This document shows positions 3,789 to 10,871 of a stretch of 34,812 bases of DNA, piece after piece. Below the pieces are notes generated by a model. The model ran no database searches, was not told where the DNA came from, and saw only the letters and a list, made by a program, of their open reading frames with translations. How positions within the stretch are numbered: position 1 is the stretch's first letter; each line of letters starts with the position of its first letter. This stretch comes from Pseudomonadales bacterium (GTDB lineage: Bacteria > Pseudomonadota > Gammaproteobacteria > Pseudomonadales > Azotimanducaceae). A program made the position numbers and the translations under genes. The DNA is taken from positions 1 through 34,812 of the forward strand of contig JADHNT010000019.1 in assembly GCA_016779385.1 (NCBI GenBank), written 5' to 3'.

Positions 3789-7808
<4,020 letters not shown>

Positions 7809-7817
7809 GGCGCGTCC

Positions 7818-8273
7818 CTAGCCCCGGAGCTTTACGGCGTAAACCCCTTCAAAGCGGGCGCAGTTCTCCGTTTCCGAGCCGTTGACGAAGACCGCCAGGG
7901 TCAGCCGTGCCCGGCCCTCGCTACGAAGGGTGTCGCAGAAGGCCTCGCGCTCCGCGGCCCCAAGCGTGGTGTGGATGGTCAAGGCCTCCGTCACCGGGCG
8001 GCGATAGCGGATCGTCCCCTCCGCAATCACCAGTTCCCCGTCGAGCCCCGCGGCCTCTAGAGTGAGGGCAACCCGGCCCCAGCCACAGAGCGCGGCGGCG
8101 GCGTAGAGGCTACCGGCGAAGCCCGTGCCGTGCACGTTCCGGTTCGGCTCGAGGGGCGCCTGGAGGAACAGGGCGCCGTCATCGCCATCCATAATTTTTA
8201 AGCCCATGGCGGCGCTGAGGGGAATTTCTTCATGCCATCGGCGTTCGAGGGCAATAAGGGCAGGGCTTAGCAT
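7818..8273 (-). CDS. YiiD C-terminal-type thioesterase-like hotdog protein
   Basis: This 151-residue product resembles the YiiD C-terminal putative thioesterase domain. It has an N-terminal helix leading to HEEIPLSAAMGLKI, a central PNRNVHGTGFAGSLYAAAALCGWG helix region (about 43-65) that forms the hotdog active-site helix, and late strands with IRYRRPVT and FVNGSETENCARF. The family is thought to hydrolyse acyl thioesters, but the substrate is unknown. ATG 8273 is preceded by a good AAGGAG. It is the last gene of the riboswitch-led minus-strand run, 48 bases after the YkoF-like gene, so it may be thiamine-regulated or a passenger with its own translation signal. The plus-strand lipoprotein gene ends only nine bases away. 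Confidence 0.75.
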   Translation of the reverse strand: MLSPALIALERRWHEEIPLSAAMGLKIMDGDDGALFLQAPLEPNRNVHGTGFAGSLYAAAALCGWGRVALTLEAAGLDGELVIAEGTIRYRRPVTEALTIHTTLGAAEREAFCDTLRSEGRARLTLAVFVNGSETENCARFEGVYAVKLRG

Positions 8274-8321: not shown

Positions 8322-8597
8322 CTACGGCGCTCCGTAGGCCTCTTCCGGGTGGGGCGCGGTGGCGGGGAAGGTCAGCACCTTCAGCACCAGCGCCGCCCGA
8401 GGACCCTCCTCTAGGGTGTCGAGGGCGCGCTCTAGCCGCTCCCATAGCAGCGCCCTAGGTCCTTCGATGCGCGTGCTCATGGGGCCCACGGTGACCGTAA
8501 GCTCGGGGTGCGCGAGGGCGGCAATAAACCCCTCGATCGCCGGTATGTAGCGACGATCGAGGGGGTAGAGGCTGGCTTCTACGGACCAAAGGCTCAC
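8322..8597 (-). CDS. YkoF-like thiamine/hydroxymethylpyrimidine-binding protein, single domain
   Basis: This 91-residue protein matches one half of the YkoF family (thiamin/HMP-binding ferredoxin-like domain). The signatures are VEASLYPLDRRYIPAIEGFI near the N-terminus (about 6-25) and VGPMSTRIEG in the middle (about 38-47). YkoF of Bacillus has two such domains and binds thiamine or HMP; here only one is present, so dimerisation would be needed to rebuild that architecture. The start is GTG 8597, four bases after the receptor's stop, so translation is probably coupled. The TPP riboswitch upstream of the operon supports a thiamine-related role. No YkoCDE ABC components are in the window. The frame is short, but the LYPL and MST motifs plus context make the call good. 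Confidence 0.8.
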   Translation of the reverse strand: MSLWSVEASLYPLDRRYIPAIEGFIAALAHPELTVTVGPMSTRIEGPRALLWERLERALDTLEEGPRAALVLKVLTFPATAPHPEEAYGAP

Positions 8598-8601
8598 GGG
8601 C

Positions 8602-10665
8602 TCACCATGTCAGGGACAGGCGGGCGCCGACTTCTCGAGGCGCGCCAAGCTGGAGGTATTCCCCGGTCGCATAGCCATTGCGGGGATCGTTGCCGAAGCC
8701 GCCGAAGCCTCGGGTGCCATAGCGCTCGTCCGTGAGGTTGCGTCCATAGAGGGCCAGGGTCGCGGGCCCCAGGGGCAGGGCCAGCTGGGCGTTTAAGCGA
8801 TACAGGCTTCGAGCCCGCGCATCGTGGGAGTCGGACCAGTAGAAGCCATCCCGGCCGAGGGCCGTGATTTCGAGGGTGCTGTTCCCCGGCAGCGCTTGCC
8901 GAGCCTGGAAGGAGAACTGGTAGCGCGGGGCATGGGCCTGGTCACGCCCCGTTAGCGTATCGCCGGCGCCGTTTTCATAGCGATCAAAGCGGGTGGCCAG
9001 CAGGCCGAGGGTGCCCTGGAGGCTCAGCCCGTCCGTTGCTTGCCAGCGCCCCTCCGCTTCGAGGCCGTAGTTGCGCCCCTCCGCCGCATTGCCCGTGAAG
9101 TCGATGAACTCAGCGCTGCCGTCGCCGCGGACGCGAACGATGGAGGTGCTGATCTGCTGATCTTCCCGCTGCATCCAGAACAGGGTGAGCGCCCCGGCGA
9201 GGGTGCCATCGGCGTTGCGGCTTCGGAGTCCGATTTCCCCGTTCCAAAGCCCCTCGCTGCGGAAGCTGCGGAGATCCTCCGACAGCGTGCCATCGCTGTT
9301 GAAGCCGCCGGCTTTGTAGCCCCGGCTGAGCGCGAGGTAGGCCGTCCAACCCCCGCTGCCGTCAAAAAGCAGCGCGGCGCGGCCGCCGAGCAGCGTTTCC
9401 TGGGGGCGGAAGCGCACGGCGGCGCTGTCGTCGTAGCGGTCTCGGCGCTGCTCGAGGCGAAGTCCCCCCTCAAAGCGCCAGGGGCCGGCCAGTCGCTGGC
9501 CCAGCTCTCCGTAAAGCGCGCGGCGCTCGGTTTCAAATTGGCTCGTGAAGGGCCCTGGGGCGAAGGTGTAATCCCGCAACAGGTCTACCGTGCGCCGGTG
9601 TTGGTACAGGCCAAGGGTCCAGGGCCGATCCCCCTTAAGCTGCTGGAGGCGCAGTTCGGCGGTGGTGGTTTGACGATCCCGACGGTAGCGATCCTCAGAG
9701 CTGTACCCGTCGGGGTGGAAGCCCTCAAACGTCCAGTCCTCGTCGTACCCGTAATCGCTGTGTCCCTCGCTTCCAGCGATGAGGAGCGTAGCCCTAAGGC
9801 CGCCGGGGAGATCGGCTCGGGTCAGGCGCAGGCTACCGAGCGTGCTGTCGAGGGCGTCTTGCCCCGGCGTGTCGGCGAGGCTGCGCCGGCCATTATCGAA
9901 GGTAAAGCCGTCGTAACCGTTATCCAGTTCTAGCCGGCTTAGGCTGAGATCGAGGTCCCAAGCGGGCGCGAAGGCGTAGGCCAGGCGGAGCCGGGCGCCG
10001 CGCTCGTTGTAGTTCCCCGTGTCGTCCTTGCCGAGTGCTTGGTTCCGCATCCAGCCATCGCTTTGTCGATCGAAGGCCGCTACGCGCACCCCCAGGCGGT
10101 CGGAAAGACGCGTGCCGAAGGCCCCAGCCAGGCCATGGGTGCCCAGGTTGCCACCCTCCACCGTGAGCGTTCCCGAGCGCCGGGCCCCGGGCGCCGGGGG
10201 CGCCGTGCTTTCGAGCACCATGAGCCCCGCGAGGGCGTTCGCGCCATAGCGTCCCGGTTGAGGTCCGCGAAACAGGTTCACCGCCTTGAGATCAAAAAGC
10301 TGGGCGGCGCCGCCAGCCCCGGAAAGATCGACGCCATCGAGGATGAGGCCCACGGAGGGGTTAAGGGGTTCGCTGAACTGGCCTCGCTCCCCGATGCCGC
10401 GCATTTGGAAAAAGCGCGCCCGCCCTCCGCCGTTGGCGGCGTTAACGTTGGGGCTCTCGGCGAGCAGCCCTTCAAGGTGACTCTGGCCCCGGGCCTCTAG
10501 GTCGGCCTGGGTGAATACGGTGATGGCCGTTGGCAGCTCCTCAAGGGTTCGGGGTTGCAGCGCGCCGGTGACCACGATTTCCTCCAGGGGCGCGGGGCTA
10601 GCCAGGAGGGCCAGGGGGCTCAGGCCCAGGAGTAAGGGGCTTGCGCGAAGTAACTTGTACAGCAT
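8602..10665 (-). CDS. TonB-dependent outer-membrane receptor under TPP riboswitch control; candidate thiamine or precursor transporter
   Basis: The 687-residue protein has an N-terminal signal peptide (about 1-22), a TonB box-like EEIVVTG (28-34), a plug domain (about 38-155, with MRGIGERGQFSEPL and LILDGVDLSG), and a beta-barrel ending in the aromatic C-terminus LSLTW. This is a full-size TonB-dependent receptor that imports a ligand across the outer membrane using energy from TonB-ExbBD. The substrate is not readable from the barrel, but a THI-box riboswitch lies 68 bases upstream and a YkoF-like thiamine-binding gene follows four bases downstream, so thiamine, a phosphate ester or a pyrimidine precursor is the best inference. 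ATG 10665 has an excellent AAGGAG that is masked by a hairpin. Thiamine-regulated receptors of this kind have been predicted in other bacteria. Confidence 0.9.
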   Translation of the reverse strand: MLYKLLRASPLLLGLSPLALLASPAPLEEIVVTGALQPRTLEELPTAITVFTQADLEARGQSHLEGLLAESPNVNAANGGGRARFFQMRGIGERGQFSEPLNPSVGLILDGVDLSGAGGAAQLFDLKAVNLFRGPQPGRYGANALAGLMVLESTAPPAPGARRSGTLTVEGGNLGTHGLAGAFGTRLSDRLGVRVAAFDRQSDGWMRNQALGKDDTGNYNERGARLRLAYAFAPAWDLDLSLSRLELDNGYDGFTFDNGRRSLADTPGQDALDSTLGSLRLTRADLPGGLRATLLIAGSEGHSDYGYDEDWTFEGFHPDGYSSEDRYRRDRQTTTAELRLQQLKGDRPWTLGLYQHRRTVDLLRDYTFAPGPFTSQFETERRALYGELGQRLAGPWRFEGGLRLEQRRDRYDDSAAVRFRPQETLLGGRAALLFDGSGGWTAYLALSRGYKAGGFNSDGTLSEDLRSFRSEGLWNGEIGLRSRNADGTLAGALTLFWMQREDQQISTSIVRVRGDGSAEFIDFTGNAAEGRNYGLEAEGRWQATDGLSLQGTLGLLATRFDRYENGAGDTLTGRDQAHAPRYQFSFQARQALPGNSTLEITALGRDGFYWSDSHDARARSLYRLNAQLALPLGPATLALYGRNLTDERYGTRGFGGFGNDPRNGYATGEYLQLGAPREVGARLSLTW

Positions 10666-10671
10666 GACAGT

Positions 10672-10693
10672 CTCCTTCTCTCGAGAGATGAAG
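10672..10693 (-). promoter_or_regulatory. Hairpin masking the receptor's ribosome-binding site (riboswitch expression platform)
   Basis: Read on the minus strand, CTTCATCTC (10693-10685) pairs with GAGAAGGAG (10680-10672) around a TCGA loop, with one A-A mismatch and one G-U pair. The 3' arm contains the whole AAGGAG site for the receptor ATG at 10665. This is the layout expected of a translational riboswitch: TPP binding would leave this hairpin free to form and block initiation. The pairing is seen in the sequence; the regulatory effect is inferred. Confidence 0.6.
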
Positions 10694-10732
10694 ACCCGGA
10701 AGCGGTGAGGTGAGGGGCATAGCGAAGATGGC

Positions 10733-10831
10733 CACCTATCCCTACGCCGGTGCTAACCGGATCAGGTTCAAAGGGTCCGTTTCCGCGGAAAACGTCTCAG
10801 GCCTGCGATCGTTCAGGCCACCCCTTAGGTG
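10733..10831 (-). promoter_or_regulatory. TPP riboswitch (THI element)
   Basis: On the minus strand the conserved THI-box blocks occur in order: GGGGTG at about 10824-10819, CTGAGA at 10800-10795, then ACCC followed by GAACCTGATCCGG, TTAGCA and CCGGCGTAGGGA (10777-10740). The closing P1 helix is visible as CACCTA (10831-10826) pairing perfectly with TAGGTG (10738-10733). A GTTTTCCGCGGAAAC stem supplies the variable helix between the CTGAGA block and ACCC. This is a standard aptamer that binds thiamine pyrophosphate. It lies just upstream of the TonB-dependent receptor operon, so the receptor and probably the YkoF-like gene are repressed when TPP is plentiful. Confidence 0.96.
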
Positions 10832-10842
10832 TTGCGGGAGGG

Positions 10843-10871
10843 AGTTTAGGTAGGCCCGGTGCGCCACGCAA
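10843..10871 (-). promoter_or_regulatory. Candidate sigma-70 promoter for the thiamine-responsive operon
   Basis: On the minus strand TTGCGT (10871-10866) and TAAACT (10848-10843) are separated by exactly 17 bases. The predicted start of transcription would fall near 10836, a few bases before the P1 helix of the riboswitch, as expected for a leader RNA. The -35 match is modest (3 of 6) and the -10 match is 4 of 6. Confidence 0.4.

Follow-up and report, generated by a model that had tools for sequence, protein, structure and literature searches.

A TPP riboswitch, a TonB-dependent receptor and a single-domain YkoF-like protein in a putative thiamine scavenging operon of a gammaproteobacterial genus

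The TPP-linked receptor and the thiamine synthesis genes

The stretch of DNA analysed here, called the window, comprises 34,812 nt of a Pseudomonadales bacterium of the family Azotimanducaceae (contig JADHNT010000019.1 of assembly GCA_016779385.1) and is contig 16 of a genome of 2.42 Mb in 127 contigs that is 90.6% complete (G000). On the minus strand, a thiamine pyrophosphate (TPP) riboswitch aptamer was found upstream of the genes encoding a TonB-dependent outer-membrane receptor and a small YkoF-like protein. The features are, in the direction of transcription:

10843 to 10871, minus strand: promoter-like TTGCGT, 17 nt, TAAACT, seen by eye just upstream of the aptamer; weak
10722 to 10835, minus strand: TPP riboswitch aptamer (THI element), RF00059, full length
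8602 to 10665, minus strand: TonB-dependent outer-membrane receptor, 687 amino acids, from the open reading frame (ORF) and its Pfam domains
8322 to 8597, minus strand: single-domain YkoF/PF01910-like protein, 91 amino acids, GTG start, from ORF, profile and structural model

A first-pass annotation, made from the letters of the window, had named a canonical THI element and a full TonB-dependent receptor, and both were indeed found. The aptamer is complete (model positions 1-105) and its 76.1 bits (E 1.7e-13) exceed the gathering score of 54.3, which places it in RF00059 by sequence and structure. It is the sole Rfam match above gathering score within the window and the only TPP match across the 90.6%-complete genome. 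The same annotation had proposed a promoter. Its two boxes are visible by eye, and a 17-nt spacing between TTGC-type and TAA-type boxes also recurs by eye in three congeners (L044, L045 and L047), but a consensus promoter scan found none.

Two samples were used for comparison: a set of 58 related genomes (G numbers), the own genome included, of which 37 belong to the family and 5 to the genus, and the best 80 of 116 receptor loci (L numbers) from a scan of genome contigs, partly from the same genomes. The receptor was scored as present in a relative at E <= 1e-60. By coordinates, a TPP element lies immediately 5' of the receptor gene in 36 of the 40 receptor-bearing relatives, the own genome included, and a TPP model found the aptamer upstream of the receptor in 74/80 scan loci; this model was trained on the aptamers of the relatives, which came from Rfam's own model, and is therefore not independent of them. 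No aptamer was found at E <= 0.1 in six loci, of which L046, L070 and L090 begin at a contig edge and L054 has ~129 nt upstream, while L096 and L113 show none. Among the four relatives lacking an adjacent element, G029 and G034 carry receptor and element on separate contigs, the receptor of G021 starts 168 nt from a contig edge and in G027 no element was seen. A superseded Rfam search of 12 short YkoF loci gave no aptamer; these loci stop before the leader or have it on another contig. In the congener G002 (L044:3742-3831 and L186:1243-1332) the aptamer is shorter than that of L045 by 24 nt around the P3 arm and scores 36.6 bits, below gathering score, with receptor, hairpin region and promoter-like spacing retained; this is either an assembly error or an altered switch. 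TPP elements were also seen directly 5' of over-cut-off ThiB-family genes in two relatives (G008:C497 and G041:C1).

The receptor contains a plug (PF07715, 54.7 bits) and a barrel domain (TonB_dep_Rec PF00593, 65.3 bits), both above the Pfam cut-off, and has a signal-peptide-like N-terminus with a TonB-box-like EEIVVTG, seen by eye. Its dN/dS was 0.07 and 0.17 against the two congeners measured. The best named matches were the NCBIfam models of siderophore, B12 and heme receptors, along with a pesticin receptor, as would be expected of an ordinary siderophore or B12 receptor that stands next to a TPP element by accident. Against this, the NCBIfam scores are all below the curated cut-offs, the link to the TPP element is kept in the scan loci as given above and the receptor is present in the family exactly where thiC was not found (see below), which makes such an accident very improbable. 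The conserved TPP element directly upstream is what defines receptors of the Omr1/OMthi kind. An operon with a PnuT-family carrier is usual for them, though non-defining; such a carrier lies in the operon in 30 of the 66 loci with enough downstream sequence and is absent beside the receptor in the window's genus. As judged from sequence, the protein is probably a thiamine receptor of this kind. Two further observations were made on receptors and TonB. The receptor was also seen in records titled Klebsiella pneumoniae and Campylobacterales (L057 and L113), possibly mislabelled metagenome bins, and the window encodes at 7464-7808, plus strand, a small protein, lipoprotein-like and bearing a TonB C-terminal domain (PF03544, 61.9 bits), convergent with the operon and with similar ORFs at the equivalent place in L045, L046 and L047.

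The distribution of thiamine synthesis genes mirrors that of the receptor. thiC was found in 17 and the receptor in 40 of the 58 relatives, with no overlap and a single genome (G050) having neither (Fisher 9e-14, not corrected for kinship). Within the family, thiC is present only in G005 and G011, the sole members without the receptor. In the genus, ThiC was not found by profile search in any of the five incomplete genomes, and ThiE was found in none of the same five, ThiE-independent condensation (YjbQ) not having been searched for. thiE is present in 19/58 relatives, 16 of them over cut-off, and in 3/37 family members, one of these being weak. By contrast, thiL scored over cut-off in all five genus genomes and in 54/58 relatives. 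PF09819, which we take to be YkoE, was over cut-off in 0/58 genomes and had no match in the genus, with the B. subtilis control being detected; ThiB (TIGR01254) had no match in the five genus genomes and was over cut-off in 2/58. Therefore, YkoE and ThiB were rejected as a hidden partner of the system. The thiamine pyrophosphokinase (TPK) TIGR01378 occurred in one of the relatives (G033) and was not found in the window's genus, and ThiL together with a kinase is preferred to it as the trapping activity. The genomes used for these gene-absence counts are 79 to 95% complete, and the 90.6% of the own genome makes its absences less secure.

Taken at face value, these profiles point to a genus that apparently can neither synthesise thiamine nor, by the standard route, make use of a pyrimidine precursor. 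Since neither ThiC nor ThiE turned up in the genus while ThiL is present in all five genomes, the cargo of the receptor is probably thiamine or its phosphates and not a pyrimidine. The first-pass annotation had kept a pyrimidine precursor open as cargo. In that case, receptor and YkoF would import hydroxymethylpyrimidine (HMP) or else a breakdown product, and YkoF would be the HMP-binding carrier; B. subtilis YkoF is reportedly named a thiamin/HMP-binding protein in the title of a 2004 paper by Devedjiev, known here as a reference, and marine bacteria such as Pelagibacterales are described as salvaging the pyrimidine in the parts seen of PMC10881298. ThiE is the enzyme that would join pyrimidine and thiazole, and its scarcity in genus and family, together with the missing ThiC, renders pyrimidine import quite improbable.

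The YkoF-like protein and its gene neighbourhood

The ORF of the YkoF-like protein starts 4 nt past the TGA of the receptor gene and has no signal peptide by eye. That a one-domain YkoF-like protein follows the receptor had been noted before and holds in the present analysis. The 91 residues matched PF01910 (Thiamine_BP) with 23.3 bits (E 6.4e-5), which is slightly below the cut-off of 24.9 and in itself counts against a thiamine-binding protein. A plain phmmer search of the Protein Data Bank (PDB) with the window protein gave only chance matches to repeat proteins and a profile of 24 rows was needed. Of the 24 aligned members, 15 matched PF01910 and 10 PF07615 (YkoF) at E <= 0.01, and their profile matched structures of ykoF from B. 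subtilis with E-values of 2e-7 and 4.8e-7. Residues S9, Y11, P12, I21, S41, T42, G46 and K73 do not vary in the alignment.

The predicted structure (mean pLDDT 87) has a ferredoxin-like fold of the MTH1187/YkoF type. All 14 PDB matches with E <= 0.001 in a Foldseek search were of the DUF77/MTH1187 kind, the group names being in part our own assignment. In E-value order, the stand-alone proteins MJ1052, TM0486, SP2199 and MTH1187 lead, whereas the two-domain, thiamin-bound YkoF stands at rank 32. Therefore, calling the window protein a half-domain, as had been done, is misleading. The best Z was found with TM0486, which we take to be a thiamin-binding protein (10.1, root-mean-square deviation 3.8, 86 residues); the DUF77 matches ranged from 8.8 to 10.1. 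An unrelated designed protein reached Z 9.7 and thus ties with them, a point against the role proposed below; since it does so, the fold alone is indecisive and more is to be drawn from the sequence. Folds of the PII-like, carboxysome-shell and designed-protein kinds were set aside as instances of the common ferredoxin arrangement, though some tie with DUF77 by Z. In sum, sequence profiles and model support membership of the window protein in the broad YkoF/PF01910 family.

It resembles TM0486, MJ1052, MTH1187 and SP2199 (DUF77/PF01910), which also have one domain and the fold of the model; we know of no outer-membrane receptor or TPP switch beside such stand-alone proteins. YkoF of Bacillus subtilis is of the same superfamily and works with an ECF-type partner. 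It stands with YkoEDC and has two domains, seen as two aligned stretches, whereas here there is one domain and YkoE was over cut-off in none of the 58 genomes. The single-domain relatives are small soluble proteins, and PII-like regulators appear among the fold matches at lower rank, in line with a sensor or regulator that would, for example, tune a kinase or a carrier to the thiamine pool instead of carrying the vitamin. By E-value, the 14 DUF77-type matches are stronger than the PII-like ones, and direct evidence for a regulator was not found; we regard this role as rather unlikely, while giving it more weight than the other alternatives weighed here.

The protein is the product of a real gene under purifying selection, because dN/dS was low (0.07, 0.07 and 0.27) against three congeners. 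It is kept in all five genus genomes, in G002 only as a 17-residue piece at a contig edge.

Next to the receptor, YkoF recurs well beyond the genus. Downstream genes (YkoF, carrier and kinase) were found with iterated profiles, and gene order was counted in the 66 of 80 loci having at least 2 kb downstream. A gene was scored only if near the receptor and on the same strand, so that upstream carriers (L077 and L084) or farther ones counted as none. YkoF lies directly 3' of the receptor gene in 25/80 loci, 22 of them also with a carrier. The order receptor, YkoF, PnuC/PnuT-family carrier and APH kinase was seen in 21/66 loci, among them records of Zhongshania, Lacimicrobium, Colwellia, Pleionea and Oceanobacter, with Zhongshania aliphaticivorans, Colwellia polaris and Lacimicrobium alkaliphilum as cultured examples; four further loci have receptor, carrier and kinase, five receptor and carrier, and three receptor and YkoF alone. 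The last three (L045, L046 and L047) are all from the window's genus. In 33/66 loci none of YkoF, carrier and kinase was found close downstream on the same strand; this tells against a fixed partnership and, therefore, YkoF is dispensable to the receptor. Among the relatives YkoF is present in 16/58, plus the edge piece of G002, and adjoins the receptor in 12 of the 16; in G013 it lies beside a carrier, and the visible stretch of G026, G037 and G055 shows neither of the two close to it. Based on these counts, the pairing of receptor and YkoF is not a chance neighbourhood, yet it is not obligatory. Hence, the earlier proposal of thiamine-regulated scavenging at the outer membrane with a YkoF-family partner fits the comparison, and the search it had called for, for the trio of receptor, YkoF and THI element in other genomes, found it repeatedly.

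A tandem of carrier genes after receptor and YkoF was observed in L109 (6192-7644); in the carrier tree, the second of them has a very long branch. In the window, YkoF is followed after 48 nt by another gene:

7818 to 8273, minus strand: YiiD_C thioesterase-like gene (PF09500, 137 bits)

L045, L046 and L047 have a similar ORF in the corresponding place, and the gene is possibly the third of the transcript.

The predicted expression platform

Between aptamer and receptor gene, the leader contains a hairpin adjoining the start codon and two segments that could pair with each other:

10757 to 10763, minus strand: aptamer segment GATCCGG, able to pair with 10693-10699
10693 to 10699, minus strand: CCGGGTC, complement of GATCCGG (one G-U pair), 34 nt before the start codon
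10670 to 10695, minus strand: ribosome-site hairpin with GAAGGAGAC, from the minimum-energy fold

The ribosome site GAAGGAGAC is predicted to lie in the 3' arm of the hairpin with a mean unpaired probability of 0.13. CCGGGTC overlaps the 5' arm of the same hairpin, and a pairing over seven positions with GATCCGG of the aptamer is possible. A match as good was obtained in 1.5% of mononucleotide shuffles. Three values from the window itself argue against the switch: compared with dinucleotide shuffles the anti-sequester pairing has p 0.065 and is marginal alone, the hairpin has p 0.38 and is unremarkable alone, and the fold of the whole leader is barely beyond shuffles (z -1.0). Thus, the masked ribosome site of the first-pass annotation is retained as a prediction of the fold, while the hairpin as such does not stand out from shuffled sequence.

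The relatives gave a clearer picture. Pairing was analysed in 71 of 75 leaders (L062, L087, L120 and L123 were dropped for want of a usable core, aptamer end or start) and hairpins in 70, with L116 also dropped; start codons were chosen by script, some distances are unsure and that of L116 is clearly wrong. The anti-sequester pairing passed p <= 0.05 against dinucleotide shuffles in 29/71 leaders, in 26 of these 28-44 nt before the start. A second design, in which CTCCTTAGG pairs with the aptamer 5' strand CCTAAGGGG, passed in 14/71, and either design passed in 42/71, a count to be read with the two candidate pairings given to each leader and the non-independence of leaders from related genomes. 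In second-design leaders (L068, L091, L098, L105, L063 and others) CTCCTTAGG was seen by eye to pair with the ribosome site as well. The hairpin passed p <= 0.05 in 18/70 leaders, the window being outside these 18, and its pairs covary between genera by eye (for example GGTCTTC/GGAGACT, GGATC/GATCC, GGTTC/GAACC and GGCTCC/GGAGCC). In the ligand-free fold of the window and two congeners, the alternative pairing could be forced at a cost of 3.9 to 6.3 kcal/mol, and the mean probability that the ribosome site is unpaired then went from 0.13 to 0.42, 0.18 and 0.39, respectively; in Zhongshania it rose from 0.40 to 0.54 and in Lacimicrobium from 0.05 to 0.35. In sum, the prediction is a ribosome-site hairpin that pairing with the aptamer could open, with marginal statistics in the window and better ones in relatives. 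As for its direction, TPP would turn the operon off, because known TPP switches work so.

The proposed route from the outer membrane to TPP

The genome's only PnuC/PnuT-family carrier over cut-off is encoded outside the operon, on contig 92 (G000:C92:5125-5664; PF04973, 188 bits). It is followed by an AAA_28 NadR-like kinase (98 bits) and a convergent APH kinase (75 bits), and this cluster is present in all five genus genomes and in more than 10 genomes of other genera. The claim that the system has no ABC or YkoCDE partner holds as far as YkoE and ThiB were not found in the genus and for the operon of the genus itself; it fails more widely, since carrier and APH kinase follow YkoF in the four-gene loci and the own genome has both elsewhere. 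A second PnuC-like match on contig 65 of G000 (20.5 bits, below cut-off) was dropped, no ORF there being recognised by the carrier profile (L185). In several genera (L160:2203-7043, L188, L190 and L191) the carrier, the NadR-like and the convergent APH kinase lie beside genes that by eye resemble a response regulator and a sensor kinase.

Whether the contig 92 carrier would transport thiamine was weighed on both sides. A number of observations disfavour it. In a tree of 78/79 rows (one too short; midpoint root only), it is separated from most receptor-linked carriers by a branch supported at 97/95, for which the bootstrap had not settled. Among solved structures it comes closest to PnuC, a transporter of nicotinamide riboside (4qtn, E 4.4e-11); a receptor-linked carrier had no PDB match at 0.01. 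The neighbouring AAA_28 kinase resembles NadR, G013 has both kinds of carrier, and G011 and G056, which bear thiC and lack the receptor, have carriers from the contig 92 side. Therefore, the carrier is not accepted as a proven thiamine carrier and it may transport nicotinamide riboside. On the other hand, the contig 92 side also holds, near its base as drawn, the TPK-linked carrier of G033 and the receptor-linked carriers of G045 and G036. The two carrier clades largely exclude each other in the 37 family genomes: one has both, seven only the receptor-linked and 26 only the other clade, and three have none (Fisher 8.5e-5, not corrected for kinship; counts typed by hand, with a G020 fragment unplaced and the receptor-linked carrier of G036 counted with the other clade). 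The carrier-linked APH kinases of both locus kinds fall together, and 13 of 14 unlinked APH proteins lie outside their group (SH-aLRT 93, short of the 95 mark). In L077 (2624-3794) and L084 (2696-3794), carrier and NadR-like kinase lie directly upstream of the TPP element and the receptor in the same direction. Because of this clade exclusion, the grouping of the APH kinases, the layout in L077 and L084 and the receptor- and TPK-linked carriers on its side of the tree, thiamine is somewhat more likely to be the cargo.

The two clades also bear on the question of whether YkoF is still in use. It could be the remnant of an operon of receptor, YkoF, PnuT and kinase whose carrier was lost or replaced in the genus, leaving YkoF idle. 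Indeed, YkoF without a carrier is found only in the window's genus (3/25 YkoF loci), and within the family YkoF is present in 7/8 genomes with a receptor-linked-clade carrier as compared to 5/26 with only the other clade (p 0.001, not corrected for kinship), these five all being from the window's genus and one of them being counted from a fragment at a contig edge. For the most distant pair, constraint on YkoF is laxer than on the receptor (0.27 versus 0.17). An idle gene is, however, hard to reconcile with its retention throughout the genus at the dN/dS values given above, and we consider it improbable, if not quite as improbable as import of a pyrimidine.

We favour, with some confidence, a thiamine scavenging operon of a thiamine auxotroph that is part of a whole route from the outer membrane to TPP. 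With TPP plentiful, the aptamer would be folded and the upstream arm free, so that the hairpin closes over the ribosome site and receptor and YkoF are poorly made. With TPP scarce, GATCCGG would pair with CCGGGTC, the hairpin would open and both proteins would be made. The receptor, driven by TonB, would then import thiamine or a phosphate ester into the periplasm. The inner membrane would be crossed by means of a PnuC/PnuT-family carrier encoded outside the operon in this genus, for which the contig 92 gene is the best candidate. In the cytoplasm, the YkoF-like protein would bind the incoming thiamine and hold it or hand it to the APH kinase, which would act as thiamine kinase, and ThiL would finally make TPP.

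Parts of this route are known from other bacteria. Bacteroides thetaiotaomicron has a TPP riboswitch, the receptor OMthi, the transporter PnuT and Tnr3, a system that was tested genetically (PMC5613172, seen in part like the other papers cited here). According to the text seen, loss of either transporter is of consequence only where biosynthesis is missing, the double loss has a strong effect, and the mutants lacking both, or one along with biosynthesis, need more thiamine. Receptor and carrier are split there and do not form one operon. The system in the window is similar in that a TPP riboswitch precedes a TonB-dependent receptor, with PnuT there and a PnuC/PnuT-family carrier here. Unlike the window's genus, B. 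thetaiotaomicron makes thiamine and has Tnr3, and no YkoF is mentioned in the main text of PMC5613172; in the genus, synthesis genes and TIGR01378 were not found, and YkoF, ThiL, the APH kinase and a carrier outside the operon are present. One result from the same text speaks against regulation as proposed here: thiamine had no significant effect on the transcripts of the TPP-linked OMthi and pnuT operons. In the parts seen of the respective papers, omr1 genes with a nearby TPP element are described in SAR86 and Flavobacteriales clusters (PMC10881298), omr1 is expressed by Cellvibrionales, termed obligate auxotrophs (PMC12442306), and a TPP operon of Variovorax includes a TonB receptor-like protein (PMC10409787). 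The omr1 systems resemble the window in combining a receptor gene with a TPP element (SAR86) and differ in that PMC10881298 lists ykoF and omr1 separately and the main text of PMC12442306 is without YkoF, no pairing being reported in the text seen. In the literature searched, which covered few subscription papers, the receptor-YkoF pairing was not found, so that earlier notice is possible; PMC10881298 and PMC10409787, in which YkoF, TonB and thiamin occur together, do not describe it in the parts seen; for YkoF together with PnuT, YkoF appeared, in the text seen, only as a reference title. Hence, the first-pass view that the arrangement is not well described is right for the link to YkoF and wrong for the TPP-regulated receptor with PnuT: the latter is the known part, and the recurring YkoF partnership is the little-noticed one.

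PnuT works by facilitated diffusion. A tentative idea, which we hold with considerably less confidence than the scavenging operon itself, is that in Gammaproteobacteria a cytoplasmic single-domain YkoF acts with the thiamine receptor, picking up the vitamin at the exit of a PnuT-type facilitator and delivering it to a kinase; in the window's genus the carrier would be one from another clade, encoded outside the operon. To our knowledge, such a soluble capture role behind a passive carrier has not been described for the YkoF family. If true, a soluble binding protein would enable a passive carrier to scavenge even when outside levels are very low.

Many aquatic bacteria are unable to make vitamin B1, as stated in the parts seen of PMC10881298, and its capture at very low levels is only partly understood. 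The present analysis ties a receptor to the loss of thiamine synthesis across a bacterial family and proposes a route from the outer membrane to TPP. Zhongshania, Lacimicrobium, Colwellia and Pleionea include sequenced strains with the complete operon, in which this route could be tested. The point of most interest is what a small, apparently cytoplasmic protein of a binding family does beside an outer-membrane receptor, and with it the widespread, poorly understood PF01910/DUF77 proteins gain a genetic context that points to their function.

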